Translations under genes and position numbers: made by a program | Part shown: in pieces, positions 1-56,974 of the stretch | How positions within the stretch are numbered: the stretch's first letter is position 1 | How the letters are laid out: each line of letters begins with the position of its first letter | Notes under the pieces: generated by a model | The model's database searches: none | What the model was told of the DNA's origin: nothing | What the model saw: the letters and a program-made list of their open reading frames with translations, nothing else | From: Asterias amurensis | Lineage: Eukaryota > Echinodermata > Asteroidea > Forcipulatida > Asteriidae | Assembly (NCBI RefSeq): GCF_032118995.1 | Contig: NC_092669.1 | Location: forward strand, 9,857,501-9,921,500 | Direction: 5' to 3' | Length of the DNA: 64,000 nt

Positions 1-25
1 AAATTGTCAGTTAATCATTACTAAT

Positions 26-8920: not shown

Positions 8921-9103
8921 GGATATTTCTTTTCGCTGTGAAAACACCTCCATGTAGACAAACAATCAGCATTCATGCTACAGAGGGAAAAAACATTAAC
9001 GAGGGGCTGCAAAAATCTGTGCCAGTGTACATGTTGAACAGAAGTAGTGTGCTTCTTATAACAATATTAAAACAGGCCTGAGTTATTGTTATTCAAATAA
9101 GTT

Positions 9104-14394: not shown

Positions 14395-14439
14395 GTTGGT
14401 ATGATTTTATCATTTGATTAAAACTGCTGATGTTCTCCC

Positions 14440-22300: not shown

Positions 22301-22840
22301 ATTTTTCTTCAGCTGCGCCACGCGTCTGCAACTCTCTGTCTTAGATAATGTCTTTGAATCACAAAATGCAAATCTCTTCTCAAAACTTATCTTACGTCAC
22401 AGGTTTTCAAGGACTTGGTGAGTCTGTTTTCTGTCGTTTTGTTTTTTGCTTTACTGTGCCTTAAACACCCAGCGGGGTGATGTATACAAAAGGATATTAT
22501 TATAGGCCAACATTGTTTTGATCTCATAAAGTTCGGTGGGAGTGGCCGAGTAAAGAGTAGGATTTGAGTGGCGGCTACCGCTCTTGACCCCTCTGGTTAC
22601 GGCGGCACTGTGGATAGAAGTTGAAAACTTAAAGGAACTTACAGGTATATTTTCTGGAGCCGTTGCCATGACAGCGGCAATCAACGCATTTGACGATATC
22701 CCACCATACCTCTGTGCGTTGCTGAGCACGATGGGACCGTGATCGCACAGGCACTGCGCAACTCCAATGTTACGGATACCAAAGAATGAGCTCCCATCCA
22801 GGGCGAGGTCAAAGGGCGCGGTTAGGTTCTCCCCTGCCAT
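19350..22840 (-). CDS. Patatin-like phospholipase domain protein A (PNPLA/adiponutrin type) with altered elbow
   Basis: Five exons: 22643-22840, 21962-22099, 20920-21123, 20652-20717, 19350-19721. All junctions are GT-AG and phase 0, giving 325 aa. The ATG at 22840 directly follows an acceptor-like CCACAG, so a 5' untranslated exon is likely. Residues 11-66 match the start of PNPLA1-5 proteins: an oxyanion-loop-like DGSSFFG, then GVAQCLCDHGP, then the nucleophile elbow region YGGISSNAL. The catalytic serine (S49) remains but the elbow is GXSXN rather than GXSXG. Exon 4 gives YVPWFPGW, and exon 5 opens FLGDATLL, where the dyad aspartate (D206) remains but the usual DG is DA. The family hydrolyses acyl esters of lipids; activity here is doubtful but not excluded. 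It has only the patatin domain plus a short tail, shorter than vertebrate PNPLA2/3. Paralogue of 30739-34815. Confidence 0.85.
19908..20058. repeat. GGACTAGTCC-type foldback in intron 4 of patatin gene A
   Basis: AGGACTAGTCTTATCTCGAG...CTCGTCCTAACTTAGGACTAG and the end TTTGTGAAATCGACCCC match the arms at 3742-4263, here uninterrupted. Confidence 0.7.
20470..20610. repeat. Foldback with GGTGGCAGCAGACTTAC arms
   Basis: TAGGTGGCAGCAGACTTACC and TAGTAAGTCTGCTGCCACC are inverted about 60 bases apart in intron 4 of patatin gene A, close to exon 4. Confidence 0.7.
21249..21420. repeat. TTAA-A left half in intron 2 of patatin gene A
   Basis: TTAAAGGCACTGGACAATAT to GAAAGGGGTAATTTCTCACT. The right half is replaced by TTAA-C sequence. 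Confidence 0.65.
21485..21857. repeat. TTAA-C element, left end clipped
   Basis: GATCGGTCGAGTTGGTC on the left and GACCAACTCGTCCGATCC...GTTCCTTTAA on the right, around a near-perfect central palindrome of CGGTCGGCCATTTATGGGAG and its complement. Other copies lie at 31225-31589, 37542-37822 and 49160-49549. Confidence 0.8.
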
Positions 22841-22967
22841 TACTGTGGATCGAAATCAAAGTAAACCATCACTGGGTCTGTCACGTAGGCTACATCGTCT
22901 GGTACACCAATAACTCACACCCGTTTCAGACAGTCGCTCCAGAGTCGCGCCGAACATAATGCGTTAA

Positions 22968-30738: not shown

Positions 30739-33700
30739 TTAGGAAATTAAGCCGTCTGTTCTCTGCCGATCGGCAATAGGACCTTCGTACACTCCATAGC
30801 GCCGCAGAAATTCCTGCGCATCTCGTTCACCTGTCTGGACCACTTTCTGCAGTACGTCCTTTTGTGGGGGGTTCAGGACGAACCCATACCCCCCGCGTTG
30901 CCCCCCGGAGCTGATCGGAACTCTGTACATATTGAAGGGCGAAGCTTCGAACCGTTCCTGGCTGATGTCTTTCCAGGTGGTGGTGATATTGTCTTGTGGA
31001 CGATAGTGGGCGGCCTGTTTGTTCGGGGAAATTGTTATGAGGGTCCCCTCTGGAAATTGAAGATCCTCGATTCCGCCGGGGTTTGTGTTGAGAAGTGAAC
31101 CATCGACCCAGAACTGGAGTTCAAGCATTCAAATTAGGATATAAAGACACAAAATTATTTTAAATTCAATTAAGAGAATATATATTATTTAATAGATGTT
31201 AAATTTGCATGGGGATAAAGCACATTAAAAGAACACGTTGCATTGGATCGGACGAGTTGGTTTTTGAAAAGCGTTTGAAACCGTTTGTTATGAAATGCAA
31301 TGGTTGAAAGATATTTTAAAAGTATAATGATCCATATATCACTCGAAATTTTACGGTTTTCCTTTTACGTCGCGAACTAACACGGTCGGCCAAGAGTCAA
31401 AATTTTGACTCCACAAAATGGCCGACCGTGTTTCTTCGCGACGCAAGGCGTGCAATTTCGAGGCATGTTTGTGTGGAACATTCTATTCACCTTTAAATTA
31501 TCTATCTAACCATTTGCATTTCATAACAAACGGTTTCAAATGCTTTTCAAAAGCCAACTCGACCGATCCAAGGCAACGTGTTCCTTTAAAGACCAGTCTT
31601 CTTACCAGTGTATCTCAACATATACATAAAATAACAAACATGTGAAAGTTTGAGCTCGATTGGTCGTCGGAGTTGCGAGATAACTATGAAAAAAACAAAA
31701 AACCTTGTCACTTGAAGTTGTGTGCTTTCAAACGCTTGATTTCGGAGACCTCAAATTCTAAACTTGAGGTCTCGAAATCAAACTCGTGGAAAATAACTTC
31801 TTTCTCGAAAACCACGTCCTTTCAGAGGGAGCCGCTTCTCACAATGTGTTATACTATCAACATCTCCCCATTACTCATTACAAAGTGAGGTTTTTTGCTG
31901 ATAATTATTTTGAGTAATTACCAATAGTGTCCACTGCCCTGTAAAATTGTTTGTAACCTACACACCGACGTGTGTTAGCACTTTCCCTACGGTTCTGTGA
32001 ACAAAATCACAAGCATTACTCGGTAAGGTTCGAACCCACGACCTTTGCAATTCTAGAGTTGATCAATTCTAAATCGCAAAGGTCGATGGGGTCGAATCCC
32101 GCCCAAGTAATATGCCTGCGATTATTTTTGTCATAAGTTGTCATCCAAGTATTTGTTTTGCAAAAAGAACCACTCGTTTTCTAAGTATAGGCGGCCTTAG
32201 GTCGACCTACGATTTTCTTGCGCCCGCAACAAACCGTCGGCAACGCACAGACAAAATATGCTCAGGTCACAACAACTGAGAAATCGTGCGCCTGCGATTG
32301 GTTCCCGACCGTCGGGATCACGTCGTATAAGTTGAAATTGTTCTACTCTTGCGACTGTTAATTTTTTCGAGCGGCAACCCTTTCAGATTGTCTTAAAATC
32401 ATCGCAGCTACGCTCAGGTCGTAAGTAATCGCCGATTGAAAAGTTCCCGAAGGTCTTAGCTCAGGCGCAGTGTGATCCCAACAAGGTCTGTTGCCGACTG
32501 TTTTTTATTGACGCAAGGTCGACCTGAGGCCGGCTTAAAACATTCACTTTCATTTGGACATATTTTTTTCAATTACATTATATTTTTTATTTCAGGACCT
32601 ATTGATCATTACGTATTGCCATTATTGACCTTAAGGCTCTGAACAGACGATCTTATTTACACCGTTTAAAGGCAGTGGACACTATTGGTAATTACTCAAA
32701 ATATTTATTAGCATAAAACCTTTCTTGGTGACGAGTAATGGGAAGAGGTTGATGGTATAAAACATTGTGAGAAACGGCTTCCACGAATTTGATTTCGATA
32801 CCTCAGGTTTAGAACTTGAGGTCTCGAAATCAACCATCTAAACGCACACAACTTCGTGTGACAAGGGTGTTTTTTCTTTCATTATTTTCTCGCAAGTTCG
32901 ATGACCGATTGAGCTCAAATTTTCACAGGTTTGTTATTTTATGCATATGTTGAGATACACCAACTTTGAAGGGTAGTCTTTGACAATTACCAATAGTGTC
33001 CACTGCCTTTAATAAGTTGTTTTGGTCCATACATAGTGAACAGGTGGTCTGAATCATTACCAAAATAAACTCACCTTCCCCTGGTACGACGGGGCCTTCC
33101 AGTCACTAAACCAAGGCACATATGTACCTGCCAGCAGAACCTGTTTCGTGAAGGAAAAAAAAACAAGAGCTCACAACTTTTCAAAATGTATAGTCACTGC
33201 ATTGGCTTAAAAAGAGGGCGTGAGGCGCAGTCGCCCCCACTCCTTGCTGGACCAAAACATGCACACAAAGAATGGTTCGATATATTTAACCACCCTCAAG
33301 TCTTTGCTCCCTTCCCCCCGCATAAAAAGGGGGGGAGTGTCTGATTGCAACGCAGTGTCTCTGCAAGTTAGAGGGGGCCATAAATAAGTAAGTCTCTAGC
33401 ATGACGCAAATCCACGACGCCCGTTCACGAATTCCTAAAAAAAAAATTTGGCTTCGTCAGTTCTTTTGAAAACGTTGCTTTCGGTGCAGGAGCCTGAGCA
33501 GAAGACAATGCCACAGTTTAGAAAATGGCACATAAACACTTTAAAATCACAAGAGGGCGCTATGGGACGCACCACTCTTAAATTAGGCCCTTTTCAAAAC
33601 CATGGATTCGGCTTTTGATTCGGCTTCAGGTACGTCTTCTAGTCTGAAGCCCTTAGCGCGAACGCAAACCACGCGCAACAGTGTCAAAACAACCGCGGGG

Positions 33701-34815
33701 CCAAGCTAGCCTGAGCCGAATCTGGAGCCGAAGCCGTGGATTCAAAGAGGGTCATTAGCCTACCTCTATTAATTCTTCCCTTGAGCTGAATGACGTCACA
33801 ATTTTCTTCTCTCCACACGCCCAAATTTTCCCGCCAAATTCAAGAACATTTGGCTTCTTAGTCGGCTGCGGAATAATGGCCGTCGTTTTGCATCTTGGGT
33901 CAGGGGTCACTGAGACCAGTTCCATGATGGGTACGTGGAGTCGACCCGAGCAACGGACATGCGCATCGTCCTTTAAGTGTGATTGGAGGATCTTCCGGAT
34001 GTCACTCATGAGGTCATATCCAGGGGTCACGGCACCAGAGGTCATAGCCGTTATTGATGCAGAAAGGTCAAAGATCGATCGCAGGTACTCCTATTTTAAA
34101 AAACACGTTATAAAATAATGTTGTTGTGAATTTTAAGAACACACTGAAAAGCAATATAAAAAAAGCTTTTGTCACTAAAATATGTGTTTTGATGAGTGGA
34201 ATGTGAATAAACAGAATAAGGTGAAAGTGTCCATTTTATTAACAAATTTAACAGTAGGCCCGACCCGAGAAGGCGCTGTTCGTGACGTCAATCGAGGCGC
34301 GTTATTTGAAGAAAAAATATGTAGTCTGGCCCCACATTTGAGGTTTTTTTTATTGAACGCTCACGCGATGCTATTTGTTCAACTTACAAAATGGCCGCAC
34401 AAACACACGCTGTGAGATGCCAGTTTTGTCAACTTAGAAAATGGGCCTGGGCGCATGCCGGGGCGCGTATATAGGCAAGTGCGCTCTCTAGTTCTTATAT
34501 ATAACTCTATGCTGTTTTGTCAACTTAGAAAATGGCCGCCTGCTCGCATACCGGGGCGCGTATTATAGGCCAGTGCGCGCTCTAGTCCTTTCTGATAAAG
34601 TCAGGGTACCAGTCTAAGTTTCATCTTACCGGTAGTCTCTCTGGTGCACTGAGCATGATGCAGGCGGTGATGGCTCCAGCCGATGTACCACCGTAGCAGT
34701 TGATCTTACGGATTAATTCTTTACCATGGTCCAGGAGGCAGATCGCTGAGCCTATGTTGTAGACCCCCATGAATGAGGTCCCTGCAAAGGTCAGATTGCA
34801 GGCGTCTGATGACAT
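30739..34815 (-). CDS. Patatin-like phospholipase domain protein B (PNPLA/adiponutrin type)
   Basis: Four exons: 34630-34815, 33764-34090, 33075-33140, 30739-31113. All junctions are GT-AG and phase 0, giving 317 aa. The start ATG 34815 follows the acceptor CCAACAG|G. Residues 8-17 carry the oxyanion-loop region LTFAGTSFMG, then GSAICLLDHG, and the nucleophile elbow G43-T-S-A-G47 with S45. After YVPWF in exon 3, exon 4 opens FWVDGSLL with D197 as the expected dyad partner. Members of this family hydrolyse triglyceride, retinyl ester or phospholipid acyl chains, usually at lipid droplets or membranes; which substrate applies cannot be read from the sequence. It is about half to two thirds the length of vertebrate PNPLA2/3, with no long C-terminal lipid-droplet region. 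Its second exon equals exons 2 and 3 of gene A joined. The catalytic motifs look intact, unlike gene A. Confidence 0.85.
31225..31589. repeat. TTAA-C element, full length, in intron 3 of patatin gene B
   Basis: TTAAAAGAACACGTTGCATT to CAAGGCAACGTGTTCCTTTAA with the CGGTCGGCCA central palindrome. Confidence 0.8.
31586..31940. repeat. TTAA-A element lacking its left terminus, joined to TTAA-C
   Basis: Begins at the TTAA shared with the TTAA-C copy, then AGACCAGTCTTCTTACC, and runs to CCAATAGTGTCCACTGCC. Confidence 0.7.
31950..32150. repeat. Head-to-head SINE palindrome, imperfect
   Basis: A SINE on one strand (ACACCGACGTGTGTTAGC...GGTTCGAACCCACGACC) is followed at once by the opposite strand of the same head (GCAAAGGTCGATGGGGTCGAATCCC...TGCCTGCGATT). 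Same arrangement as at 46831-47165 but more diverged. Confidence 0.65.
32185..32540. repeat. Long foldback with TTAGGTCGACCTACG ends
   Basis: GGCCTTAGGTCGACCT and AGGTCGACCTGAGGCC are inverted ends of an otherwise weakly folding, GC-richer segment. No coding sequence. Confidence 0.5.
32666..33012. repeat. TTAA-A element with small internal deletion
   Basis: 347 bp. TTAAAGGCAGTGGACACTAT to GTCCACTGCCTTTAA; about 40 bases after GAAACGGCT are missing relative to the copy at 3270. Confidence 0.8.
33585..33755. repeat. Foldback beside the exon 2 donor of patatin gene B
   Basis: CCCTTTTCAAAACCATGGATTC and AAGCCGTGGATTCAAAGAGGG are inverted ends, with GGCTTCAG-type inverted pieces inside. It ends about 10 bases from the splice donor at 33763. 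Confidence 0.65.
34375..34603. repeat. 90-bp tandem repeat in intron 1 of patatin gene B
   Basis: TTTTGTCAACTTAGAAAATG begins units at 34424 and 34514. A shorter relative (TTGTTCAACTTACAAAATGG) begins near 34374. Confidence 0.7.
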
Positions 34816-35032
34816 CCTGTTGGTTGACACATTAAACGCCAATAAGTAAGCAACAAAATATATACCCCCCCCCCCCCCAAGAAAAAGAGCTTGTACGTGT
34901 AGCTCTAACGTACATAAGTTCATATTTCTTTATCAAGATCATTGCGCACGAATTTTCCGAAATGTACATAAAGTAACAGATTCTCTTATGACAGTAGAAA
35001 GATTGTTCCAAATAATTGGCCAAGCTACACAC

Positions 35033-42216: not shown

Positions 42217-45200
42217 ATGTCATCATTTCGATCCAGACGACCAGAAGGAAATCAGTCAGTCGAGTTCCCCGCCAAAAACAGGAACAAGCTTCCCGCCAAA
42301 AACAGGCACACCGAACTCAACCACACGTACGACTCGGTCAAATCACCACCAGTGCCCAAGAAACGCGATTCCATCGGTGGCGGTTACGTCATTCCAGCAA
42401 GAAGGTTCGCCCAACAAGAGGACCCAACCGAACACTACCTTAATGTGCCGAGGAATCCCCAGGCTAGAAACTTGATGATTGGGAGGCAGGAAGGTCTGCC
42501 ACCTCAGGTGAACACCCCACATGTGAAACACTCAGTCGAAAGCCGAGGCGACCCACCAGTAGGAATAAAGCCAAGGACGCCAAAACGAGAGGGTAAAGTC
42601 GATGCCAATTCTCCTCGTCCACAAAGGAGATCTGAATTTGATCCACCAACAACCATGGGGAACCTTCAAGGCATCCTTGAAAGCAGGATGAATTCCCCGC
42701 GAAGCAGGGGTCCAATACCATTACCGAGGTTTCAGAAGGACCGAATACCGGGGCCTTCGAGGCAAATCACAGTGCCGTTCTCTGGAGCTGTAAGGCACCC
42801 AACCTCCTTGTCGCTGACCACGGGGTTTCTCAGGGAGCTGGAGACTGTCGACCCGGTCTTGCGTGGTATCTTCCAGCAGTGCGGGGATACCATGGAGCGA
42901 TACGCTAAGCAGGTAGCTGATGGGCGTCTGATCTTCACCTCCGATCGTTTCGCGTGTGGGATGTTCGACCACCATGGGGGCTATCTCCCCCTCCCTGCCC
43001 ACAAAGTATCCCTCTACGTTACTCCTCATGCGATCGTGGGAGACGAACAAGAGCCTATCTTTGTCTACGTCCTTCCCGAATCCACCCAAGAGATTCTAGT
43101 CTTTGAGAATGGTGAGGAGGTTATAAGCTCTACCATCGTGTGTGGTAAGACTGGACACAAATTCTCTAGCGATGTTGTTCTGTCTTTTCCAGTGTCAACA
43201 CATGGCCCAGATAACTCTGTCGATCAACAGGTCATTATCTGGGAGTATGGGATGTCGACAGACGACAAACCCAAACAACAGGTCATGGACAACATCCTCG
43301 ACTGTTTCTACTCCATTCAAGACAACCGTTGTACACTGATGGTCAACCAATTAGCAAACTTCACTGTCATCTCGAAGGCCGAACGACGGGCCGAAGGTTC
43401 CCGATCTTACTATCCGAACCCGTCTTCGGATGAGTCCGTAAGCCTTCGGATTGGCGTGTTTGGTAGGCAAATAGCAGGAACGGGGAGTGCTCAGATAAGG
43501 GTTATATTTTGGAAGGACAGTGATTTGGAAACGAAGGTAAATATTTGTAGTAATTTTCAATATCTTTCTGGAAACTTGTTTTATTTTATATATTTTGTGT
43601 TTTTCCGCTCAAGCGTTCAAATTTACGCATGTTTCCTTTAAAGGCAGTGGACACTATTGGTAATTGTCAAAGACTAGCCTTCACAGTTGGTGTATCTCAA
43701 CATATGCATAAAATAACAAACCTGTGAAAATTTGAGCTCAATCGGTCTTCGAACTTGCGAGATAATAATGAAAGAAAAAAACACCCTTGTCACACGATGT
43801 TATGTGCGTTTAGATGGTTGATTTCGAGACCTCAAGTTCTTAATCTGAGGTCTCGAAATCAAATTCATGGAAAATTAACTCTTTCTCGAAAACTATGGCA
43901 CTTCAGAGGGAGCCGTTTCTCACGATGTTTAATACCATCAACCTCTCCCCATTACTCGTCACCAAGAAAGGTTTTATGCCAATAATTATTTTGAGTAATT
44001 ACCAATTGTGTCCACTGCCTTTAAAGGCAAAGTATACTTTTGTCTCTTGGAACCGTTTGATTGTTTTAATCCTATGTAAATGAAGGTGCATACAATAAAG
44101 TATCATGTAGAAATTTCATTTCCAAAGAGTACAGCCAAGGAAAGAATCCACTAGAGCCAACATGACTTCCCTCTGATGGAGACCAACGAGTCTCAAACAT
44201 CAAAGTATTCTGACCTGTAATCTGCAAACAACAAAAAATAACTCGAGGCAAGCGCTCAACCAGTATGGTTTGAGGACCAGGCCGCTTAAGGGCCCCTGGA
44301 AATTGTGCATTAGTAGGTGCTCTCTGATGCAATCTAGGCCAATCCAGGTACATTTTGACCTAAAAAAACAACAATCATCTCAAAGGCTTTAAATAAAAGG
44401 AAAGAAAATAAAGCAAGTTATTGCCTTGTCACACGAGGCAACTTTTGCAGGCAAAGAGGCAACCAACTGCAGTTCATTCAACATAACATGGGTAATTTTT
44501 CAAACAGTGTCTTCCAAAAAATTATGAGAACACTCAAATGTGAATAGATTCTCTTCTTGGGGATGACATGACCCTTAAGCTCTTTTCACACGACAAAGGC
44601 TATTGGTTCTTGGTCTCAGGTCCCAGTTTTCAGGTGTATAGACCTTTATCATGCTGCCTCCATCTTGGTTATGTTCCTCGTATTGAATAACAATAATGAT
44701 TGCTAACACTCATTTTGCAAATAGGAACCAGACTATTTTGTTCTTCCAGCTTCGGTTTGGCAACATTTATATCAATGGGATAAATTCAAGATGGCTGCAC
44801 CATCATAAAAGTCTACTGTTGGACCCTTTTCCCCCTTTCTCCTCCTTTCTTCCTAACTCCTTATCTGGGTTTTGGTTTCGTCTTGTACTTGATCGAATTC
44901 CCTTTCGTCTATCCTATATGTGTCGTGGCTGAGCGGTTAAGAGCAGAGTGTGGGTTCGAATCCCCCTGCCGTGACACTTGTGTTCTTAAGCAAGACACTT
45001 AACCAATGCTTCGTCCTTCAGATGGGACGTGAAGCCGTTGGTCCATGTGTTGTGTTAACCCAATGTAAAATAACCCAGTGAACTTATCGGAAACAGAAGG
45101 GGTTTGCCCTGATGTTCCTGGCTGTGGCTGCATGCTGTATGCGCCGTAGCACCTTGTAAACCCTTATAAGGTGCTAAATAATTGGGTCTCAGAATTCATC

Positions 45201-48200
45201 ACCGCAATAACCTATCTTTCTGAGAGTTTGTATGTACTCGGCGTCTTGAGTACTTTGTTTGGTAGATACCTGTGCTATATAAGACTTCGATATTGTTTTT
45301 ATTATTATTTATAGAGGATAATGTGTGAGGAGCAACGAGATGGTTTCTCCAAGTTGGACCGGGTTAGGGTCATGGTTATCAACAGATACCGCAAAGCAGT
45401 AGGGGTAGCAGTCATCAATGTCATACCAGGATGGAACCTTCTATCAAAAGACAAAGAGGTCAGAGTTTATTCTGAGTCTAAGAGTCACTTTAAAGGCACT
45501 GGACACTATTGATAATTATTCAAAATAATTGTTAAAGGCAGGGTGGACACTTGGTTAATTACTCAAAATAATTACCAAGCGCTATCATATCTATGGTTAA
45601 CAACAATGTTCCAAACAATTACGGCGACTTGATAAAGAAGTCCAAGTACAAAGTCTGTCGGTGTATGACATTAGTAATTATGCTACTCAAAATAATTATT
45701 CGCATAAAACAATTACTTGGTAGCAAGCAATAGAGAGCCGTTGATAGTATAAAACATTGTGAGAAACGGCTCCCTCTGAAGTAACGTAGTTTTCAAAAAA
45801 TAAGTATTTTCCACGAATTTGATTTAGAAACCTCAGAATTAGATTTTGAGGTCTCGAAATCAAGCACCTGAAAGCACACAACTTCGTGTGGCAAGGTTTT
45901 TTTTCTATTTAATTCATATCTCGCAACTTCGACGACCAATTGAGCTCATAATGCATATATTGAGACACACGGGAAGACTGGTAATTGACAATTACCAATA
46001 GTGTCCATGTCTTTAACATAAAACAAATACTTGGTAACGAGAAGTGAATAGCTGAACCATAAAACATTGTGAGAAGCGGCTCCCTCTGACATGACGTTGT
46101 TTTTGAGAAAGAAAATACTCCAGGCCTGAACCCTTTTATTATGCATCTGAAAGCAAACGAAGTAATGAAACAAGTTTGTTTCTTTCATTACCTCTTGGAA
46201 ATCCAATAACCAATTGACCCTTAATTTTCACAGGTTTGATATTTTATGCATATGTTGTGATACACCAAGTCTTTGACAATTGTGACCCGCTCTGTGAAAA
46301 TGAGTCAGATGTAGGCAATTTCAGGAATTGAGTTATATGCATGGCTGATGGAAAGAACACATCAGCAGCAGCAATTTGGTGTGTGTCTAAAGCTTTGGGG
46401 TGTATCGCGTTGCTGAGTTACTCCCATTTTGAAATTAGCCACTGCACCATTTTTTGTGAAAAACGAATTACAAGTAAAATAATATTTTAAACTACCATTG
46501 TGTGAAAAAGGATACAAATTAGACATAAGTATGACCACAAAATTGTTGTATTTATAGCTTTATTGCCTAAAAGTAAGTGTTCTAAAGGTTAACCATGCAA
46601 CGTAAGATCTTAAAAAGAAAAAGAAAAAAACTTTTTTTTTTCCTTTTTTTCCCTTCATTTTCCACATTAAACTGTCCATAACTTAATATTGCATTGGGCT
46701 CATGTGACTCATTTTCACAGAGTGGGTCACAATTACCAAAGCGTCAGTGCCTTTAAGTGTGAAACCATTCCGCTTACCAAATCACCTAAAATCTTCCGGG
46801 TTTCAATTTACCCGGATCTATTTTATTTTTAATAGATGTTAAATTTGCATCGGGGAAAAAGAGTACTCATTTTAGTTTTACCATTACACCGATGTGTGTA
46901 GCACTGTATACTCAGTACTTTCCCGAGTCCTGTGAAAAAAATCACAGGCATTTTTTACGCGGGTGGGATTCGAACCCACGACCTTTGCAATTCCAGAGCA
47001 GTCAGGTCGTGGGTTCGAATCCCACCCGAGTAAAAAAATGCCTGTGATTTTTTTTTCACAGGACTCGGGAAAGTACTGAGTATACAGTGCTACACACATC
47101 GGTGTATATGGGTAAAAACCAAAAATTAATATTCTTTATCCCCGATGCAAATTTAACATCTATTAAATACTAAGTACTAATTACAGGCATATTACGGGTT
47201 TGAACCGGAGTCCGCAGTGGTAAAAGGAAGGGAAAAAACCAACAGGCCAACCTGGGCAATGGTTTTTTTTGTGCTCCGTGAAAGAACATTCCAAGGAAAG
47301 CACGATATTGGACCCTGATCTTGCTCTCAATGTGACTCAATACTATAAACACTTATTGCAACTAGTTCCTTTTCAGTTTTGATTCCTTATAACCCTTTGA
47401 GCAACAATAATACAAACTTTCACTTTTGTTTTTTGTCAGCATGGACCATTTTCTTCGAAATTAAGGCGGAAACGTAAAATAGAATACGGAATTGGCCTAC
47501 AATCACGCATTGCAAATAATGCACAATAGTTAAAACATACTTTATGAGTAGAGTACTAGATGGCCTTAGCTTTCGATGCAAACCGGACCTCCTTCAGAGG
47601 CATAAAATAAGTACAAACAAATACATATCCATTTATAGAAAAAGAGAGGGGTAAGGGATTAAGGGAAGGATCCAGAAAGAAGCGGGAAATTACAGCCAAT
47701 CAAAGTTTCTATTTCAGAAACAATTGGTGGCTATGAACCAATATCAATAGGAGTAAAGTGGTGAGGTCAAAGGATGTTCAGAAATTGTTCTGAAAAGAAC
47801 AGGTAGGGAGTGGGAACAAACTTTATATACATACATACATACAACAGAGCATTTGTAAAGCGCCTTCCATCGATATCAAAGCACAGAAAAGAGCAAAACA
47901 GCGCAACTAAACTACAACAAGCTGATACAAACAAGTTTTTAGAGATTTTTTTAACAATGTCAAAAAATTACAATTTCTGATGCGTACTGGAAGGTTGTTC
48001 CACATTTGGGGAGCAACAAAAGGGGAATGGGTCTGGTTTGAGCAGATGAGAGTGTTCGATTATGCTGGGAGTGGTGTCAGAAGCCGACACTTTGTCAAAA
48101 TATTTGGTGAACATCGACAAAAAAAGTTGCCGATTTAATTCAAAGCTTATTTCAAAGTCAGGCTTTCAACTTTACTCTTGAAGGGGCACGTCAAATTTCC

Positions 48201-51200
48201 TCTGGCAAGGGGCACTCTATGGGGAAAATGTACATTTTTATTTGGGTTTTTTTTGCACTGGGCACCACAGCAAAGGCACAGGGCACCACGACAATTGGTG
48301 GTGCCTTGGGTTTATTTTCAGGCCTGCACAGCTTAACAAACAAACTATCAAATCACAATACGTTTTTAAAGGAACAGAAGCCCTTTATATAATCCTACAT
48401 AGACTGACAAACCTGTTGAAGTTTGAGGACGATCAGCCATCCGGGTCATGAGAAAATAGTGAAAACACAATTATACATTAATTGGCATGACATTGAACGC
48501 TCATTGAGCGATAAACTCCAAATGGGGAAACAAAGTAAATATGACATTTCAAACAGAAATATTTCAAGGGATGTTTTCTTCAATCAGCATCATAAGACCG
48601 TGTAAGTTTTCTGTAAATCTGTGGTCTTAGGTGAGTTTTTTCTTCCTTAAAGAAAATGATTTCAACGATCAACATTTTCAATATTATAAATATTTTCCCG
48701 TTTTCAGAATTTTACGGTGGAGCACATCCTCTCACAAAACCGCAAAGGTGGTCATTTCCCATCCTGCACGTTCGCCCTATATCGTGTCGGGGGTCCGGGG
48801 GCAACCAATACCCCTCATGTAGCAGCATGTACCATTGAGGTCTCACAAGACGGTGGGGACGAGGATGATGGGAACGAGGGTGATACCATACAGTTGGTGG
48901 CAATAGTTGAAGGCGTTGCAACCAATCAGCAAGCGGTTTGTGATGTACGTTTTTTGCTATATATTTTATCTTAGAAAAGTTATAGGAAAATGCTTTAAAT
49001 TAGCATTTCCAATGAATTATTATAGGGCCTACTCATAGAGTTGTTCACTTGAAAGCAAAAGCCAATTACCTTTTAGTTATCGTTTTGCTTTCATTCTATT
49101 TTGGACAAGTCAAATAGAGTTCCTGTTAACCACGTAAAACTTTGGAATAACCTTGGAATAAACTTCACACGTTGCCTTGAATCGGTCGAGTTGGTCTTTG
49201 AAAAGCGTTTGTAACCGTTTGTTATAAAATTGATATGGTTAGAAAGATGTTTAATAAGTAGAATACAATGATCCACACAAACATGCCTCGAAATTGCTTG
49301 GTTTTCCTTTTACTTCGTTGACTAACACGTTCGGCCATTTATGGGAGTCAAATTTGACTCCCATAAATGGCCGACCGTGTTAGTTCGCGACGTTAAATTA
49401 AAACCGTGCAATTTCGAGTGATACTTGTGTGCATCATTGTATTCTACTTTTACAACATCTTTCTAACCATAATATGCATTTCACAACAAACGGTTTTCAA
49501 CGCTTTTTATAGACCAACTCGTCCGATCCAAGGCAACGTGTTCCTTTAAGCAAACCTTTGATTTAGGCGCTATATAAATTGTTTACAGTTGATTGAGGCA
49601 GTTTTGCTGTCATAATAAATGCATGCCGTGTCGTCACTCGTGAAGTCGTGGTGTGTAGCCAAATGGATATTTGTTTCGCAGGGCTTTTCACAAAGTATGG
49701 CGTTAGTTTAAACAAACAAAAATAAACGTGTGAAGTTTCCTTTTACTTACAAAATACATGTTGGTATTTAATAATATCCATTCTCAATAGCCTGATACAC
49801 CCTCAGTCCATCCGCGAACACAACTCAAGGATTCTGGCGATTTAACGGGGCTGCAGGACGAACCTTCCCCTGGAAAGGGCCTCAAAGCACCCATCAAATC
49901 ATTCCCCGTGACACCCATCGCTAAACCATCCGCTTGCCTGAGATACCAAATACTTGGGGAGTTGGCTCTTCACTTGGAGGTAAAGTAAACATTAGTTAGA
50001 CGGAGACATCTTTTTAGACCATTAAGACAATTTGTTTAGACCATTATTGTTTATAATACATTAAAATTGTAACGTCATTATCCTATCTTTGATCCTGTAA
50101 TTCTATAACTGTCTATTGTTGGTTTCATAATCCTAATGCTAATCCTACCCTTTCATGTTTCCCGCGTTGTACTTGTTATACCTACAAAGTTTTCCCGCCC
50201 TTTTTTGCAATCTTCCGTTATTATCTTTTGCTCCTCTTTTTGCTATAAATGAATATGTTTTTGTTTATGCCTATAACGAAGGTCTGGTTTTGATCGAAAG
50301 CTAGGGCCATCTCCCCTAATCATTATTATTCTTCATAAACAGTTAAAATTGTTTGTATCAAAACCTCAAGAAAAATCAAGTGCTTTGAAACAAGAAACTG
50401 AAGTTTGTCACTTTTTGTCAATCTTGCAGCAGTAACTACGTAAACTTTCTATCTGGGGCCAATTTCATAGAGCTGCTTAAGCAAAAATGTTGCTTTAGCA
50501 CGAAAATAGCTCGCTTATTTTACACATGTTACTGGCAAAAATTTCATGCAATATACATTGCTTGTGACTGGTATTTAGCTGTTGTTTACTTAGCATAACA
50601 ATTGAGTGGAGTCTTGGCCGGTAATCTGATTTTACTAAGCAAGGATTTTTTTTTAAGCAAAATTTTGTGCTTAAGCAGCTCTTCGAAATTGGGCCCAGCT
50701 CTGTGGCTTTTAATGTTTGATCTAATCCTCATTAAAGGCACTATATAGACACGTTTGGTAGGCCTTATTGTCAAAGACCAGTACTCTCACTTGGTGTATT
50801 CCATGCCCACATAATGCATACAATAACAAATCTGTGGAAATTTTGAATCAATTGGTCAACGAAGTTGCAAGAGAATAATGAAAGATAAAACACCCTTGTT
50901 ACACAAATTTGTGTACTTTTAGATGCCTAAAAAGAGCTTCAGGCCTGAAGTCCTTTATCAGATTCAAATATTTTGAGTGAAAAATTACCTCTTTGTCAAA
51001 AGAAATTGTTACTTAAGAGGGAGCCGTTTCTCACAACGTCTATACTATCAACAGCTCTCCATTGCTGGTTGCCAAAGAAGTTCTTCTTCTAGCAATTTGT
51101 TTGAGTAATTATCAATAGTATAATTGCAGCCCACACCTTGAAGTGGCCTTCAGGCCTTGTGTGTCAGGCGACTTGCATTAAAAATAAAAATAAAAAAATA

Positions 51201-54200
51201 AAATAAAAAAAGTATCCAGTGCCTTTAAGCACCTCACCCTATTATTTTCTGTACTGTTTCTTAATAAGGTGAGCGACATCTCTGGCCGTTGCTGGAAGCT
51301 CCTAGCTAAGAACATGGGACTCTCTGCTCCAAACATCTGCTGTCTGAGTGAGAGGTACCTCTGCCCTGGGGAGGCTTTGATCAACTGGTACCTAGGCCAA
51401 CAGGTAAGCCAGAAACTAAACCCAAAGTCCTAAGCCTGTAAGATAGGGCACTCATCAATACACATATCTACTTTATGGTTATTCTTGGTCAAAGACGTCA
51501 CTACCCAAGCCTGTAGTTAGGGCATTCATCAATACACATATCTACTTTACGGTTAGTCTTGGTCCATGACATCCTATACTCTAATGTAACAAAACGCAAT
51601 ACAACGTAACGTAATGTAACCTGTTAACCTAACGTATCATAGCGTAACGTACTGTTACAAAACGTAACAAGGTAACCCAACAGAGGGCATTTTTTTATTG
51701 TAACGCAACGTAACACAACGTAGTGTAACGCAGCGTAACATGGTGAAATGTAACCTAACCTAACGTATCATAGCGTAACGTAATGTTACAAAACGTAACA
51801 AGATAACCCGACAGAGGATGCGCATTTTTGTCACATGATAATTTTCCTCTCTTGATGCTGCAGGTGGCCATCGTTGCACCACGTGAGGCACTTCGTAGAC
51901 TCTTGGATCTCTTCAGAGAAATGAAATGGCCAGAACTCCAATCCATTATGGTCAAAGAGCTCAGGCTTACAGAGAATCAAAATCAAGGACTCACTTCGTC
52001 TACACATCTGAAGATCTATGAGATAATTGATGATGACAACCACAGCCAATCTCCTGGAAGAAGTGTCTCCCAGAAAACCGAGGTTCAAACTCCATCTAGA
52101 TGTTTAAACCTAGGAGAGAAGCTTAACAAAGGAAAGAGCTTGATCCCTAGTCCCAGATTGTCCGCAAAACAGATTTCAAGAGGTGATCATGATAAGGAAG
52201 AGCAAACCGGTCGGACGGGACCCACTGAAGTGCAAGGTGATCACCAAGACGAACCTCCTTCTCAAAGGGATTATGACTTCGGGAGTCAAAGATCTGAAAA
52301 GGTCATAAGCCCAACGACAAGTCCAAAAGGATTCTCATATGACACGCCTTCATCACAGTTGCCAGCATCTAGGCTATTGAGACCGATGCACAATGTCACC
52401 TCATATGTTAAAGAGTCTACTTCGCAAGAACCTGAACAATCCAAGAAACCCGAGGTACCAGCCGTTGTGGTGTCAGGTGCCGTGACCCATGACATCACTC
52501 CCGAAGAGGAAAACCCATATCTTCAGCCTGATAGAAAAAAAGTGCAATTACCCATTCATCATGGACAATCATCACAAAGTGTAAGACTGAAAAACGATTG
52601 TCAAAAAACTAAAATACCAATTCCACCCGCTCGGTCTTCTTCTTTTAAGACGAAGAAAGGAAAAGATGCTTCGATACGACCTTCCAATGTCACAGTGCGA
52701 GATACCTCATTGGTTGACTCTAAATCATGTTCAAAATCACTGATTTCCCTCAAAGATATGTCAACAGACCAGCAAAATGAACATAAAAGGACGTATAACA
52801 CTTCCGTAATCCCACTTCCGCACCTAAATCAGGATTATAGAGCTCCTGAGGACCTGCAACGAGACAATGATTCAGATCTTGAAGACAACAGCCCAGATGA
52901 AAGTACCCAAGACGTTGCACTGCAAGATGCCCCTTCATTTCAAAGAAAACTAAAGAATCTCCACAAAGTTGTCAAGAGGAACCTGAAGAAGAAGCCCAAG
53001 GAGGAATTAGAGAGACGACCAAGACTAGACGCCCTGGAGAGACGACCAAGACAAGATGACCTGGAGAGACCACGAAGACAAGACGACCTGGAGAGACCAC
53101 CAAGACAAGATGACCTGGAGAGACGACAAAGGCAAGACAGTCTCCCTCTTGATGATTCAACCAAGGAGGCCATCTATGATGACATCGATGGCTGCTTTAA
53201 TCAAAAGAAAGAACTCACAATGGCTGATGCATCTGGAGAGCGGCAGTATGGAGAGCAGCGAAAGCAACTGTCTAAGGACCTGCTGGCAAAACTCACCCAA
53301 AGTAAGTGGAGGAATACAAGGTTTTTAGGTAGTAAACTACAGACAGCAGTTTTCCAAATGCTGCTACAAGCCACCTTCCCCAATACTGCTACAAGCCACC
53401 GTGTAACATTATTATCAGAATAAATTATCTTACACAGCTTATAAAATACCCTATAAAGCAGTTAAAGGGTTTGATACCTTTTGTAGATCAAGTTTTTTGG
53501 CAAAGACATGGATCCCTACTAGCTGTGAATGAAGATGTATACATCATGTAACATAATTTACCTGAGAAGTTTCAGCTTCATTAGCTGACAAGTTTTTGTG
53601 AAAAAATGTGAAAATCAGAGAGCGATGTTTTCAGGAGAGTGGCGTTAATACCAGTTCTTGTAAAAAACAGAATGACTTTTTGGTGAACAAACTCGAAAAG
53701 CTTCTAGACATTCTCCATTCTCCAGTTTGTCCTCCTTTTGGTCAAAATGAAACTCTGTTTCTCTTTTATCATAAACTACAAGAAATTTTCTTTTTTGCCA
53801 ACTTTTAGGCACAGCATCAAAACAGCCATTCATCCCATCGAGATCCAAATTTTGCACGGAAGCTCAAGGCGTAGATGGGAATGATGTTGCAGTTGGATTA
53901 CCAGGTATAGGTGCTGGAACTACATCTAACCGCTCCCGTAAGTCTCGACACAGTACAGGTGATTATAAATAGGATAGTGCTTCAGGTGGGGTTGGAATTG
54001 TCCCGAGGGTACTCGGTTCATACTTCCTACGATTGTGAAGCATTTGGATGTCACATGGCTGTTTTCGCAGCGAATGTTTCGCGGGAGTTGAACACAAGTC
54101 AACTGAAGCGAAGTACTCCTTGCAAATCTGGACGTAAACATTCTTATCGCATTTGCAGGAAGTTAATATGAACCGTGCTTTAACCTTCACCAGTGACTTC

Positions 54201-56974
54201 ATACTTTATTGTTCCAATGCTCGAATTTTTTGCACGAATGGAGGGATGTTAACGGTAGCCAATGCGCCATTCATACAAAATATCAGAGCGATGGAACAGT
54301 GGCATGATCATGACGTCACAGATGGAGATAATTATGAAGTAATAAGTTGTTTGCTACAAAAATCAAGAGTCATCAGTGTTATTATTGTATACTCCTCATA
54401 TTCAAGCATTTCTGGTAAATCTGAGGAGTTCAAGTGCAGCTATATAAAACATGTAAATAATGTAAGCAGAACTTGGCCACTACTGAGAATTTGAAACTTT
54501 GCATGGTGGATTTGCAACCAAGAGTGGTTTGCGGTAACACCAAGTTGGGGAGGTAGTGCTTTCTACCAGCCAGGCTTCTGATTGATGATACCCAAGCCTA
54601 CATCCGTATGGACTGTAAAGGGGGTAACCCTAATTCAGCTCTTGCAGTAGGTGGCAAAGGCCCCTGGATGAACAAATATTGTAGCCCACACCTTGAAGTG
54701 GCCTTCAGGCTTTATGTGTCTGGCGAATTGCACAAAAAAAAACATGTGAATATCTCTTTTGATGATTGTTGGTTCTGAAAAGAACTGGTGATTAACCACT
54801 CCTGAAGACAATAGCATACTGACCATAAAACTCTCTTAGTTAGTGTAACACCATGCTAGTAGAAACTTCAATAAAATAATTCTCACATTAAAGGGAAGGT
54901 ACACGTTTTGTAATGACTCAAAACAAATATTAACTTAAAAACTGACTTGGTAACGAGCATTGGAGAGCTGTTGATAGTATAAAACATTGTGGGAAATGAC
55001 TCCCTCTGAAGTAATGTAGTTTTTGAGAAAGAAGTAATTTCTCGCTAAAATAATAACAGATTTCTAGCTAGAAGTCTTTTATTCCTATCTGAAAGCACAC
55101 AAATTCGTCCAACAAGGGTGTTTTTTCTTTCATCATTTGTTCGCAACTTCAATGACCGATTGAGCCCAAATTTTCACAGGCTTGTTATTTTATGCTTATG
55201 AAGGAATACACCAAGTGAGAACACTGGTCTTTGATAATTACCAAATGTGTACCGCGCCTTTAAATAAATAACTGACTGACAATCTCGAACTTGGTCTTTT
55301 TTAACAGATGAAATGATAAGCTATGAAGACACTTCGATGTATGAAGTTGGCGCTCAACTTGATGCTAAACTCTCTCCAAATAAATCCTTACCAAAAGATA
55401 TAAAACCATGCGCGAAAACTGCAGATATGGAATGCTACGAAGACATATGCACATTTCAGAAACAAGTCGCAAACCCGATCACACTGGCCCTAACCAAGAA
55501 TTTGCCAAATCTTCTACCCTTTGTGTTACCCTCTGCGCAAACGGATGACAAGGAATGCTATGGAAGCGCCAGTACACCAGTGTACAGAACCAGAACCGAC
55601 CAGCTCAAACCAGTTCCCAAAGTGACCGGAACCGACCAGCTCAAACCAGTTCCCAAAGTGACCGGAACCGACCGGCTCAAACCAGTTCCCAAAGTGACCG
55701 GAACCGACCGGCTCAAACCAGTTCCCAAAGTGAAAAAGATACCATCTTTTCCTCCAGGGGCATCACCATCTAAACAACAGGCAGCAGTCGATGACATGGT
55801 CAGCTATGAGGATGTCAGTATACCCGAGTATCCATATGGTACATCTAGTGAACAATTCAAACTGGTTTCCAAAACAAAAACTGTTCCCCAAATTCCAACT
55901 CGAACAAACATGGACTATCGCCTCCCAACAGATGACATGGTTACTTACGAAGATGTTACAACTCCATGTAATCCAGATTGCGCCAGAATGGATCAGTTAA
56001 AACCGGTTTCCAGGAAGGAAATGCCAAACATTACTCGGACTGTGACCGATGAAATGACGACCTACGAAGACGTCACTAAACCCGAGTCTCATATTGGAAC
56101 TAGAAAACCAATTCGCCAGAAAAAGTTACCAGCTATACCTTCTCGTGGTGTTGACAATCCCCGCACAGCATTTGCGTACACCAAAGATGCTTTCAACTCA
56201 CCTGAGCCTTCGACCAGAATAGAACACGCTAAATCGGTTCCCAAAGCTCTAGTATTTCCACCACGCTATACTGATGCACCACCTGAAGACAACTATGAAG
56301 ACATCAGCATCCCAGTAAATCTCACTGGACAGACCAAAGGCAAGAAATTACCAACGATACCACCTTGTGATGAAGTGCAACTTTTTGCTGACCACCACAC
56401 TACAACTAGAACTGACCAGTTCCAGCCGGTTCAGGGAAGGCAATCACCAGTTATTCCTCCTCGGAATCCAGAAAGATCCCATGTGGGAACTGATGACATG
56501 GTAAGCTATGACAACGTTACTATTCCTGAGCATCACGTAAAAGAGGCAAGAGATTTCAAACCAGCTGCTAAAAAGAAAGTACCGGCAGTACCGCCCATAC
56601 CGCCCCGAGAATATTCCAAACCTGCTTCAGAATACGACACGATCGCTTCAGGAGAAGTCAGGAACTTGGACTATCCAAACGAAGCCAGGATGAACCAGTT
56701 CAAAGTCTTGCCAACACACGGCACACCACCATGCACAACTGATGACATGACAAATTATGAAGACATGAATAGGGTCCAGAAACCGGCTAGAACCAGATCT
56801 GACCAGCACAGTAACCCAATTGTAACTCCAGATAACATGCCAGGTTATGAAGACATGACCGTGCCTCAGTATCCGGATGGAACTGGATCTGACCCGATCA
56901 AGGTGGTCAGAACAAACACAGGGAAGTTGATGCCAGTCCGTGTATTTGTCCCAAAACAAAAATACAAATACTAG
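42217..56974 (+). CDS. ZU5-UPA-death-domain adaptor with a long tyrosine-motif and SH3-motif tail
   Basis: Eight exons: 42217-43536, 45315-45458, 48708-48944, 49791-49979, 51269-51403, 51864-53301, 53809-53904, 55308-56974. Introns 1-5 are phase 0 and introns 6-7 phase 1; all are GT-AG, and the exons join to about 1741 aa. An in-frame TGA upstream supports ATG 42217. Residues 1-185 are basic and proline-rich (SPPVPKKR, YLNVP). ZU5 spans about 245-345 (GMFDHHGGYLPLP, VTPHAI, LSFP), UPA about 370-555 (INVIPGW, SCTFALY) and a death domain about 608-720 (GRCWKLLAKNMGL, INWYLG, over exons 4-6). The order is that of UNC5 cytoplasmic tails and UNC5CL, but no transmembrane segment or netrin-receptor ectodomain is present. 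The rest is probably disordered: exon 6 has five 9-residue LERRPRQDD-type repeats; exon 8 has eight YED[VIMT] motifs plus YDN/YDT, alternating with PxxPxR motifs (VIPPR, LPAIPSR, PPIPPR). Inferred role: intracellular death-fold scaffold recruiting SH2 and SH3 proteins. No HFS/HLS autoproteolysis tripeptide seen. Confidence 0.85.
43638..44024. repeat. TTAA-A element in intron 1 of the adaptor gene
   Basis: Full length, TTAAAGGCAGTGGACACTAT to GTCCACTGCCTTTAA, starting about 100 bases after the exon 1 donor. Confidence 0.8.
44025..44924. other. Unclassified intronic sequence
   Basis: A 93-codon minus-strand frame at 44072-44353 has no recognised domain. Otherwise nothing seen. Confidence 0.35.
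44928..45313 (+). mobile_element. tRNA-derived SINE abutting exon 2 of the adaptor gene
   Basis: The head GTGTCGTGGCTGAGCGGTTA (A-box) and GGGTTCGAATCC (B-box) is of Leu/Ser-tRNA type with a shortened anticodon region. It is followed by a conserved body (AAGCAAGACACTTAACC, GCTTCGTCCTTCAGATGGGA, TAAGGTGCTAAATAATTGGG) and a 3' end ATATAAGACTTCGATATTG with a TTATTATTTA tail. The tail runs straight into the acceptor TTTATAG at 45314. A minus-strand relative lies at 58050-58305. Confidence 0.75.
45490..46016. repeat. TTAA-A copies, broken
   Basis: A 45-base left end (45490-45535) abuts a second left end (45532) whose body is interrupted by about 85 unrelated bases before resuming at CTCAAAATAATTATTCGC (45675) and ending GTGTCCATGTCTTTAA. 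Confidence 0.6.
46013..46756. repeat. TTAA-A copy with nested GTGACCC element
   Basis: ATAAAACAAATACTTGGTAACGAG-type body, interrupted at 46282-46730, resuming AATTACCAAAGCGTCAGTGC and TTTAA. Confidence 0.65.
46282..46730. mobile_element. 449-bp element with GTGACCCGCTCTGTGAAAAT ends
   Basis: The terminal inverted repeats of about 26 bases, GTGACCCGCTCTGTGAAAAT and ATTTTCACAGAGTGGGTCAC, differ at one position. AATT flanks both sides (46278-46281 and 46731-46734) as a probable 4-base target duplication. No coding sequence. Confidence 0.75.
46831..47165. repeat. Near-perfect head-to-head SINE palindrome
   Basis: Two copies of the same tRNA-derived SINE (body GATGTTAAATTTGCATCGGG, CCTGTGAAAAAAATCACAGG, head GGTGGGATTCGAACCCACG) lie in opposite orientation, meeting at the tRNA-like head around 46998-47012. 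The arms are about 155 bases with only a few differences, giving a very long hairpin in intron 2 of the adaptor gene. Confidence 0.8.
47166..48179. other. Intronic, no exon seen
   Basis: Contains an (ACAT)n run near 47829 and GTAAAGCGCCTTCCATCGAT...GGAAGGTTGTTCCACATTTG (47858-48020), which reads like a worn repeat tail. A GTTCTGAAAAGAAC piece of the 2870 foldback lies near 47790. Confidence 0.4.
48180..48330. repeat. Diverged GGGCACC repeat
   Basis: GGCAAGGGGCACTCTATGG and GGGCACCACAGCAAAGGCAC recall the repeats at 8148 and 10826. Confidence 0.45.
49160..49549. repeat. TTAA-C element in intron 3 of the adaptor gene
   Basis: CACGTTGCCTTGAATCGGTC on the left (TTAA end clipped), central GGCCATTTATGGGAGTCAAA palindrome, right end CAAGGCAACGTGTTCCTTTAA. 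Confidence 0.8.
49980..50454. other. Intronic, no exon seen
   Basis: AT-rich. The segment 50140-50330 (CCCGCGTTGTACTTGTTATA, TTTTGATCGAAAGCTAGGGC) reads like the 3' end of a retroposon, but this is not secure. Confidence 0.3.
50455..50700. repeat. Foldback with GGGGCCAATTTCATAGAGCT ends
   Basis: GGGGCCAATTTCATAGAGCTGCTTAAGCA and its complement TGCTTAAGCAGCTCTTCGAAATTGGGCCC (split here: CTGCTTAAGCA / TGCTTAAGCAG) bound the element. Fragment relative near 24262. Confidence 0.7.
50732..51228. repeat. TTAA-A element with retroposon-like insertion
   Basis: TTAAAGGCACTATATAGAC to TATCCAGTGCCTTTAA. AATTGCAGCCCACACCTTGA...AAATAAAAAA is inserted at 51122-51206 between copies of AGTAT. It ends 40 bases before exon 5 of the adaptor gene. 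Confidence 0.7.
51432..51581. repeat. Two-copy 75-bp tandem repeat
   Basis: AAGCCTGTAAGATAGGGCAC (51432) and AAGCCTGTAGTTAGGGCATT (51507) start two similar units. Confidence 0.75.
51590..51825. repeat. Degenerate CGTAA/GTAAC satellite in intron 5
   Basis: Dense CGTAAC-like pentamers. A longer unit, CTAACGTATCATAGCGTAAC, occurs at about 51628 and 51757. Confidence 0.75.
53007..53141 (+). repeat. In-frame 27-bp minisatellite, five units
   Basis: Encodes five 9-residue units of the form LERRPRQDD in exon 6 of the adaptor gene. Confidence 0.85.
54490..54835. repeat. Foldback fragment with retroposon-like insert
   Basis: GAAACTTTGCATGGTGGAT...GTGGTTTGCGGTAACACC and the right piece GGTTCTGAAAAGAACTGGTG recall the foldback at 2870. 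Between them ACATCCGTATGGACTGTAAA...CAAAAAAAAAC (54600-54744) matches the insert at 30577. Confidence 0.6.
54898..55263. repeat. TTAA-D element in intron 7 of the adaptor gene
   Basis: TTAAAGGGAAGGTACACGTT to GTGTACCGCGCCTTTAA. The interior is shared with TTAA-A but the termini differ and the central palindrome is TTTCTAGCTAGAAGTC. It ends 45 bases before exon 8. Confidence 0.75.
55595..55738 (+). repeat. In-frame 36-bp minisatellite, four units
   Basis: Four 12-residue units TDQLKPVPKVTG in exon 8 of the adaptor gene. DNA copies differ at only a few positions. Confidence 0.9.

Follow-up and report, generated by a model that had tools for sequence, protein, structure and literature searches.

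Can a single animal gene encode both a ZU5-UPA-death-domain module and, behind it, a long tail of tyrosine and SH3-binding motifs? The question is raised by a locus of the sea star Asterias amurensis, on the + strand of a 64,000-nucleotide stretch of contig NC_092669.1 (assembly GCF_032118995.1, positions 9,857,501 to 9,921,500), hereafter the window, in whose coordinates the locus spans 42217-56974. A first-pass annotation had proposed that eight exons encode a cytosolic protein of about 1741 amino acids (AAs), with ZU5, UPA and death domain (DD) in its first part and a tyrosine/SH3-motif array behind them. On the strength of its sequence patterns, we propose that the gene rather probably encodes a cytosolic ZU5-UPA-DD adaptor with a phosphorylated tail that would gather SH2 and SH3 proteins in the manner of ADAP.

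Rebuilt from open reading frames (ORFs) and splice sites, the eight exons join in frame to exactly 1741 AAs and a TAG stop, so that the annotated chain stands. The exons are as follows.

42217 to 43536, + strand: exon 1, its ATG preceded by AAAAAC; a proline-rich N-terminus of disorder-like composition (AAs 1-245), ZU5 and the start of UPA
45315 to 45458, + strand: exon 2, UPA
48708 to 48944, + strand: exon 3, the UPA match extending to about AA 536
49791 to 49979, + strand: exon 4, a linker, then the beginning of the death-domain match
51269 to 51403, + strand: exon 5, the core of the death-domain match (GRCWKLLAKNMGLS)
51864 to 53301, + strand: exon 6, the death-domain match ending at about 51926 and the tail beginning; IYDDI (Tyr codon at 53175) and PIPPAR (52617)
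53809 to 53904, + strand: exon 7, phase 1 on both sides; PFIPSR at 53826-53843, alternative donor at 53938
55308 to 56974, + strand: exon 8, tyrosine/SH3-motif array and TAG stop codon

All seven introns have GT-AG borders, introns 1-5 being in phase 0 and introns 6-7 in phase 1. When codon usage was learned from exons 1 and 6 and scored against 150-nt intron windows of the same gene, the predicted frame gave the best score for each of the six held-out exons, in every case over the 99th percentile of the intron windows, exon 5 clearing the background narrowly (0.009 vs -0.034). With the alternative donor of exon 7 (GT at 53938) the phase is kept and the product has 1752 AAs; at the exon 7/8 junction the upstream donor reads DEMISYED and the alternative one HEMISYED.

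A search of the full 1741-AA protein against Pfam (E up to 10) returned three families only, ZU5, Death and UPA, and the domain matches are collinear in the order ZU5, UPA, Death. Two of them lie in exon 1:

42958 to 43191, + strand: ZU5 match (AAs 248-325), Pfam PF00791, E 1.7e-10, 41.5 bits, cut-off 21
43441 to 43536, + strand: start of the UPA match (AAs 409-440), PF17217, trimmed query, 18.1 bits, E 0.0022, cut-off 27

In a sequence search of the PDB, the best matches of the ZU5 part were the ZU5 domain of ZO-1 (E 0.0035) and UNC5B (E 0.024). The Death family (PF00531) matched a trimmed query over exons 4-6 with 20.3 bits (E 0.00062, cut-off 22.6), exons 4+5 with 16.8 bits and exons 5+6 with 17.5 bits; the match was gone from the trimmed constructs without exon 5 and from the reversed sequence. 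UPA was found when the end of exon 1 was joined to exons 2 and 3 and in none of the three constructs with one of these parts removed. The right order, the need of UPA for all three exons and that of Death for exon 5 and a forward sequence lead us to put more trust in both matches. One 321-AA query gave an additional, weaker match to Neural_ProG_Cyt (E 0.071). Of the architecture read by the first-pass annotation, ZU5 is confirmed by profile search and the order is supported, UPA and Death being sub-threshold matches. The predicted protein has no transmembrane-like stretch (best 19-residue Kyte-Doolittle mean 1.19), as had been claimed.

The tail following the death domain is about 1030 residues long and of disorder-like composition, and its tyrosine array lies in exon 8:

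55322 to 56857, + strand: eight YED[VIMT] sites, Tyr codons at 55322, 55436, 55805, 55946, 56063, 56294, 56756 and 56846
55559, 56507 and 56633, + strand: three other tyrosine units, YGSA, YDNV and YDTI, respectively

These are exactly the sites that had been listed before. The last residues of the eight YED sites are T, I, V, V, V, I, M and M, and the 11 units lie 30-82 residues apart. Shuffled versions of exon 8 contain 0.02 YED[VIMT] on average and none of 5000 reaches eight. Across all six reading frames of the 64-kb window the wider pattern Y[ED][DE][VIMTL] occurs nine times, always in the frame of the gene, eight times in exon 8 and once in exon 6. The acidic triplet said to precede many of the tyrosines is also there, D[DEN]M standing ahead of the tyrosine in 7 of the 11 units; the other four read ADM, DDK, PPE and KPA at this place.

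Conservation of the YED residues among units chosen by YED is circular, as such codons can differ at third positions only, and for this reason a second choice was made by D[DEN]M alone, blind to the tyrosine. All seven anchors so picked have a tyrosine five residues after the Asp (chance about 2e-10 from the frequency of Tyr). When the anchor units are compared at codon positions 1, 2 and 3, the three codons from the tyrosine on show 6/63, 0/63 and 31/63 differences, and the two residues just before it 21/42, 26/42 and 27/42; the anchor's own D and M are no evidence, since the choice fixes them. These codon differences at anchors blind to the tyrosine imply that the tyrosine motif was held while the linkers drifted. 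The eight YED copies are not recent identical copies, since their third positions differ in 34 of 84 comparisons, and the shuffles together with the anchor test reject a chance origin of the array. V, I or M stands at Y+3 in 9 of the 11 units, with a nominal p of 1.4e-6 that is too good, since this pattern had helped to select the units. The array thus appears, from its sequence, to be one of conserved tyrosine motifs with SH2-ligand features, as in a phosphotyrosine scaffold. Four exon 8 sites match a single immunoreceptor tyrosine-based inhibition motif and one matches the related switch motif (ITSM), and no paired activation motif (ITAM, YxxI/L x6-12 YxxI/L) was found.

Proline motifs of the SH3-binding type are also enriched in exon 8, PxxPx[RK] occurring five times (1.21 in shuffles, p 0.006) and [RK]xxPxxP six times (1.21, p 0.0008). 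The following sites and repeats lie in the tail.

55886 to 56608, + strand: five SH3-type sites of the form P-x-[IV]-P-[PST]-[RC], starting at 55886, 56129, 56351, 56447 and 56591, the third ending in Cys
55589 to 55733, + strand: four near-identical 36-bp tandem repeats, TD[QR]LKPVPKVTG, 98% matches, a recent expansion within the array
53010 to 53138, + strand: a 27-bp tandem repeat of 4.8 copies, of a charged ERRPRQDDL type unlike the tyrosine units

With the one in exon 7, the P-x-[IV]-P-[PST]-[RC] sites number six. The Arg is kept in four of the five exon 8 sites, and these occupy 4 of the 11 units, for which reason the earlier statement that proline motifs alternate with the tyrosine sites is right as to their presence and too strong as to their alternation. 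A stretch D-Q-[LF]-[KQ]-P-V is found at four places, two of them inside the 36-bp repeat block, and in 3 of the 11 units. In the fullest units D-[DEN]-M-x-x-Y-E-D-[V/I/M] is followed by D-Q-[LF]-[KQ]-P-V and, after that, by a P-x-[IV]-P-x-R-like site. Similar motifs extend beyond exon 8, to PFIPSR in exon 7, to PIPPAR and IYDDI in exon 6, and to YDSV (AA 38), YLNV (AA 74) and PPVPKK in exon 1. By charge and hydropathy the tail in exons 6 and 7 falls on the disorder side (-0.138).

Phosphotyrosine scaffolds and death-fold adaptors usually meet via intermediates only. It is possible, and we suggest it tentatively, that here tyrosine-kinase signalling and death-fold assembly are wired together in one cytosolic molecule, whose switchable ZU5-UPA-DD half would be joined to a multivalent phosphotyrosine/SH3 array kept by selection, with kinase activity directly setting death-domain clustering. 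Such an adaptor would belong to a class that none of the papers listed in the literature searches describes. By analogy with UNC5B, which is proposed to open and close, with ZU5 resting on UPA and DD when closed (excerpt of PMC8358048), the first half would switch between a closed state, in which ZU5 holds UPA and DD, and an open state recruiting death-fold partners. Src- or Syk-type tyrosine kinases, to judge from their preferences, would phosphorylate the YED sites. These would then be bound by SH2 proteins of the Nck, SLP-76/BLNK, PLC-gamma or p85 classes, and the proline motifs by SH3 domains. The resulting multivalent assembly could cluster the molecule and with it its death domains, or draw a death-fold signal into a phosphotyrosine complex; binding of the Nck type would favour a cytoskeletal output. 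The analogy for the docking step comes from ADAP, whose phosphorylated YDDV peptide pulled down SLP-76, Nck1/2, PLC-gamma1, p85, RasGAP, Crk and Gads, the same partners being stated, with data not shown there, for its C-terminal YDDI (excerpt of PMC2908683). In a sea-star egg, transcripts for a Src-family kinase, PLC-gamma and a BLNK-like SH2 protein exist (excerpted text of PMC11593052). If the proposal is true, the gene offers a simple test of whether kinase-driven clustering starts, blocks or redirects death-domain assembly, for which the array provides a ready-made Tyr-to-Phe mutant series.

Several observations weigh against an ADAP-like adaptor. In the search with the full protein the matches of UPA (12.6 bits, E 0.11) and Death (13.5 bits, E 0.079) are weak, and the trimmed queries still score below the curated cut-offs, so neither domain is called on Pfam's own terms. 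The death domain alone retrieved no solved death domain from the PDB, its four matches all being chance-like, and a single-sequence structure prediction of the ZU5 part (42817-43536) reached a predicted local distance difference test score of 32.7 and a predicted template modelling score of 0.21 and was not used. In the array, the anchor Asp codon is GAT in 7/7 units, which hints at some recent copying. YxxM and YxN, each with two occurrences, are not enriched in exon 8 over the shuffles (p 0.14 and 0.21), so a p85 or Grb2 specificity as the main theme is rejected, and the earlier remark that YEDM fits the docking pattern of PI3-kinase p85 is weakened. The companion remark, that YED[VI] resembles docking sites for Src-family SH2 domains, names one fit among several, which include ADAP-like YDDV ligands and YxxPhi signals; SH2 specificity is deduced from human proteins. 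The motifs of exon 1 and those of the exon 6 tail are, each group alone, not significantly enriched over shuffles, and exon 8 itself is borderline for disorder (charge-hydropathy -0.015, from composition only).

Is the array translated together with the ZU5-UPA-DD half at all? Exon 8, with or without exon 7, could form a separate gene or transcript, the ZU5-UPA-DD protein ending soon after exon 6 and the array lying in an intronless or differently started neighbour. Two further points against the adaptor speak for such a division: (i) an in-frame ATG stands in exon 8 itself, at 55313 within the first unit; and (ii) reading through the exon 6 donor (53302-53424, + strand) remains open for about 40 codons up to a stop (53421-53423) that overlaps AATAAA (53419-53424), so a tail-less short isoform is possible. 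Exon 7, with phase 1 on both sides, is also skippable. The Asp codon where exons 7 and 8 meet does not discriminate: the last base of intron 7 is likewise a G, and the unspliced frame reads Asp too. According to an excerpt of PMC10464613, C. elegans unc-5 makes a short form with its C-terminus inside an intron. AATAAA, however, is common in the window (114 sites on both strands vs 95 expected), a start at 55313 would cut the anchor of the first unit, the phases agree across exons 6-7-8, the acceptor of exon 8 is pyrimidine-rich by eye (tcttttttaacag), and the array-like motifs continue upstream into exons 7 and 6. We consider the separate transcript unlikely, and take a single transcript to be the probable source of the protein.

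If the chain is one gene, its product could still work otherwise than as an SH2 scaffold. Seven of the eight YED sites match the sorting pattern YxxPhi (Y-x-x-[LIMFV]), and SH3BP4 and its closest homologue MACC1 act in clathrin-mediated endocytosis (excerpt of PMC11585957), which would make the protein an endocytic adaptor of their kind; yet the 1741 AAs contain no NPF, DPF/DPW or clathrin-box pattern, and the acidic residues at +1 and +2 suit SH2 ligands such as pYEEI and pYDDV and are not needed in YxxPhi, which makes the sorting function improbable. The idea that the molecule is a membrane-bound netrin receptor of the UNC5 type, with ectodomain and transmembrane exons further upstream, draws on the shared ZU5-UPA-DD order and on the room for an upstream exon that DNA alone leaves. 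We hold it to be very improbable, since in exon 1 the ATG leads into some 245 proline-rich residues without a transmembrane-like stretch, and ten other ORFs of the window, part of those listed, gave no Ig or TSP1 match in a scan that could miss short exons. Least probable of all is a tail that serves as a spacer or entropic linker, a repeat expansion with hardly any specific function. The paucity of hydrophobic residues, the proline-rich exon 8, the 27-bp and 36-bp tandem expansions and the invariant anchor Asp codon would suit it, but at the anchors picked blind to the tyrosine the tyrosine triplet varies mostly at third codon positions and its neighbours at all three. The P, P and R codons of the six proline sites behave alike (differences 9/45, 0/45 and 31/45), though these residues belonged to the picking pattern.

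Other features of the window lie within the introns of the gene or upstream of it. Intron 7 holds an ORF (54138-54491, + strand) with VTDGDNYEVIS near 54319, a possible acceptor in the phase of exon 8 and a weak match to DUF4751 (19.1 bits, cut-off 25). It was left out as an extra array exon, since a profile search with the 11 units (E up to 20) did not pick up this + strand stretch. A dispersed repeat (about TTAAAGGCACTGGACACTATTGGTAATT) was recognised by eye in introns 1, 2, 4 and 7 (43640-44030, 45490-46240, 50730-51130 and 54890-55260, respectively). ORFs with C2H2 zinc-finger arrays, with a best Pfam E of 9.6e-186, lie at 2-2377 (+), 9101-10471 (+) and 13228-14406 (-), and the ORF at 2381-2776 is by eye an apparent continuation of the first. 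On the - strand, a patatin-like ORF with GGTSAGA (34624-34929) scores 19.5 bits (cut-off 27.7); another, at 22454-22855, is patatin-like by eye, reads GGISSNA, so that GxSxG seems to lack its final Gly, and had no Pfam match, and the ORFs at 30742-31128 and 19353-19721, also on the - strand, are alike by eye with no Pfam match.

The ZU5-UPA-DD order, with UPA and Death sub-threshold here, appears common to the gene, the UNC5 receptors (UNC5A-D and C. elegans UNC-5) and UNC5CL. UNC5CL is a ZU5-UPA-DD protein without an ectodomain, an architecture that the first half of the sea-star protein would fit. UNC5 receptors have an Ig/TSP1 ectodomain and a transmembrane segment, whereas by Pfam and hydropathy (maximum 1.19) the 1741-AA protein has neither. 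Their functional phosphotyrosine, as far as an excerpt of PMC10464613 describes it for UNC-5, is the juxtamembrane Y482, which precedes ZU5, whereas the 11 exon 8 motif units follow the death domain. In PIDD1, CARD8 and NLRP1 a ZU5-UPA module (FIIND) is followed by a death-fold domain, as the matches suggest here. Autoproteolysis of the PIDD type is not supported: the autoproteolytic HFS/SFS ([HS]FS), which in that family ends ZU5, is absent from the 1741 AAs, the position of the CARD8 cleavage site, mapped through Leu-677 of UNC5B with the numbers in an excerpt of PMC3210808, reads QLA, and the predicted protein has no Pfam match to LRR, NACHT or CARD.

MACC1 also has several parts in common with the gene product. 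According to excerpts of PMC11585957 and PMC8390371 it has a disordered N-terminus, ZU5, death domains and a proline-rich SH3-binding motif, and is tyrosine-phosphorylated by MEK1, so the combination of ZU5 and death domain with phosphotyrosine is not wholly unprecedented; tyrosine-phosphorylated ZU5 proteins (UNC-5 at Y482, MACC1) are already known. Unlike the sea-star protein, with one death-domain match and a tail array, MACC1 carries NPF/DPF motifs, a pair of death domains and an SH3 domain of its own. In the 1741 AAs Pfam gave no SH3 match at E up to 10, a search in which the HMMER filters drop most weak matches, and the NPF/DPF count is zero. A ZU5-UPA-DD protein with a long tyrosine array behind the death domain was not found in the open-access literature among the matches listed (title and start of abstract), and exon 8 has no relative in a viral contig collection, which says nothing on animal orthologues. 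Fusions of TRADD-N proteins to a UPA-ZU5 module are reported for a clade that shows lineage-specific expansions among marine invertebrates (excerpt of PMC8195603). If our reading of the sea-star gene is true, it shows an animal lineage building new signalling hardware from ZU5-UPA-DD parts.

The tail resembles phosphotyrosine scaffolds such as ADAP (FYB1), SLP-76/BLNK, p130Cas and nephrin, none of which is known to contain ZU5, UPA or a death domain. ADAP, as presented in the excerpt of PMC2908683, combines acidic tyrosine motifs with proline motifs, and its YDDV and YDDI closely resemble the YEDV, YEDI and YDDI of the sea-star tail; its YDDV is the best documented analogue of the YED sites that we found, and by analogy the array may be read as a tail of the same kind, placed behind a ZU5-UPA-DD half.

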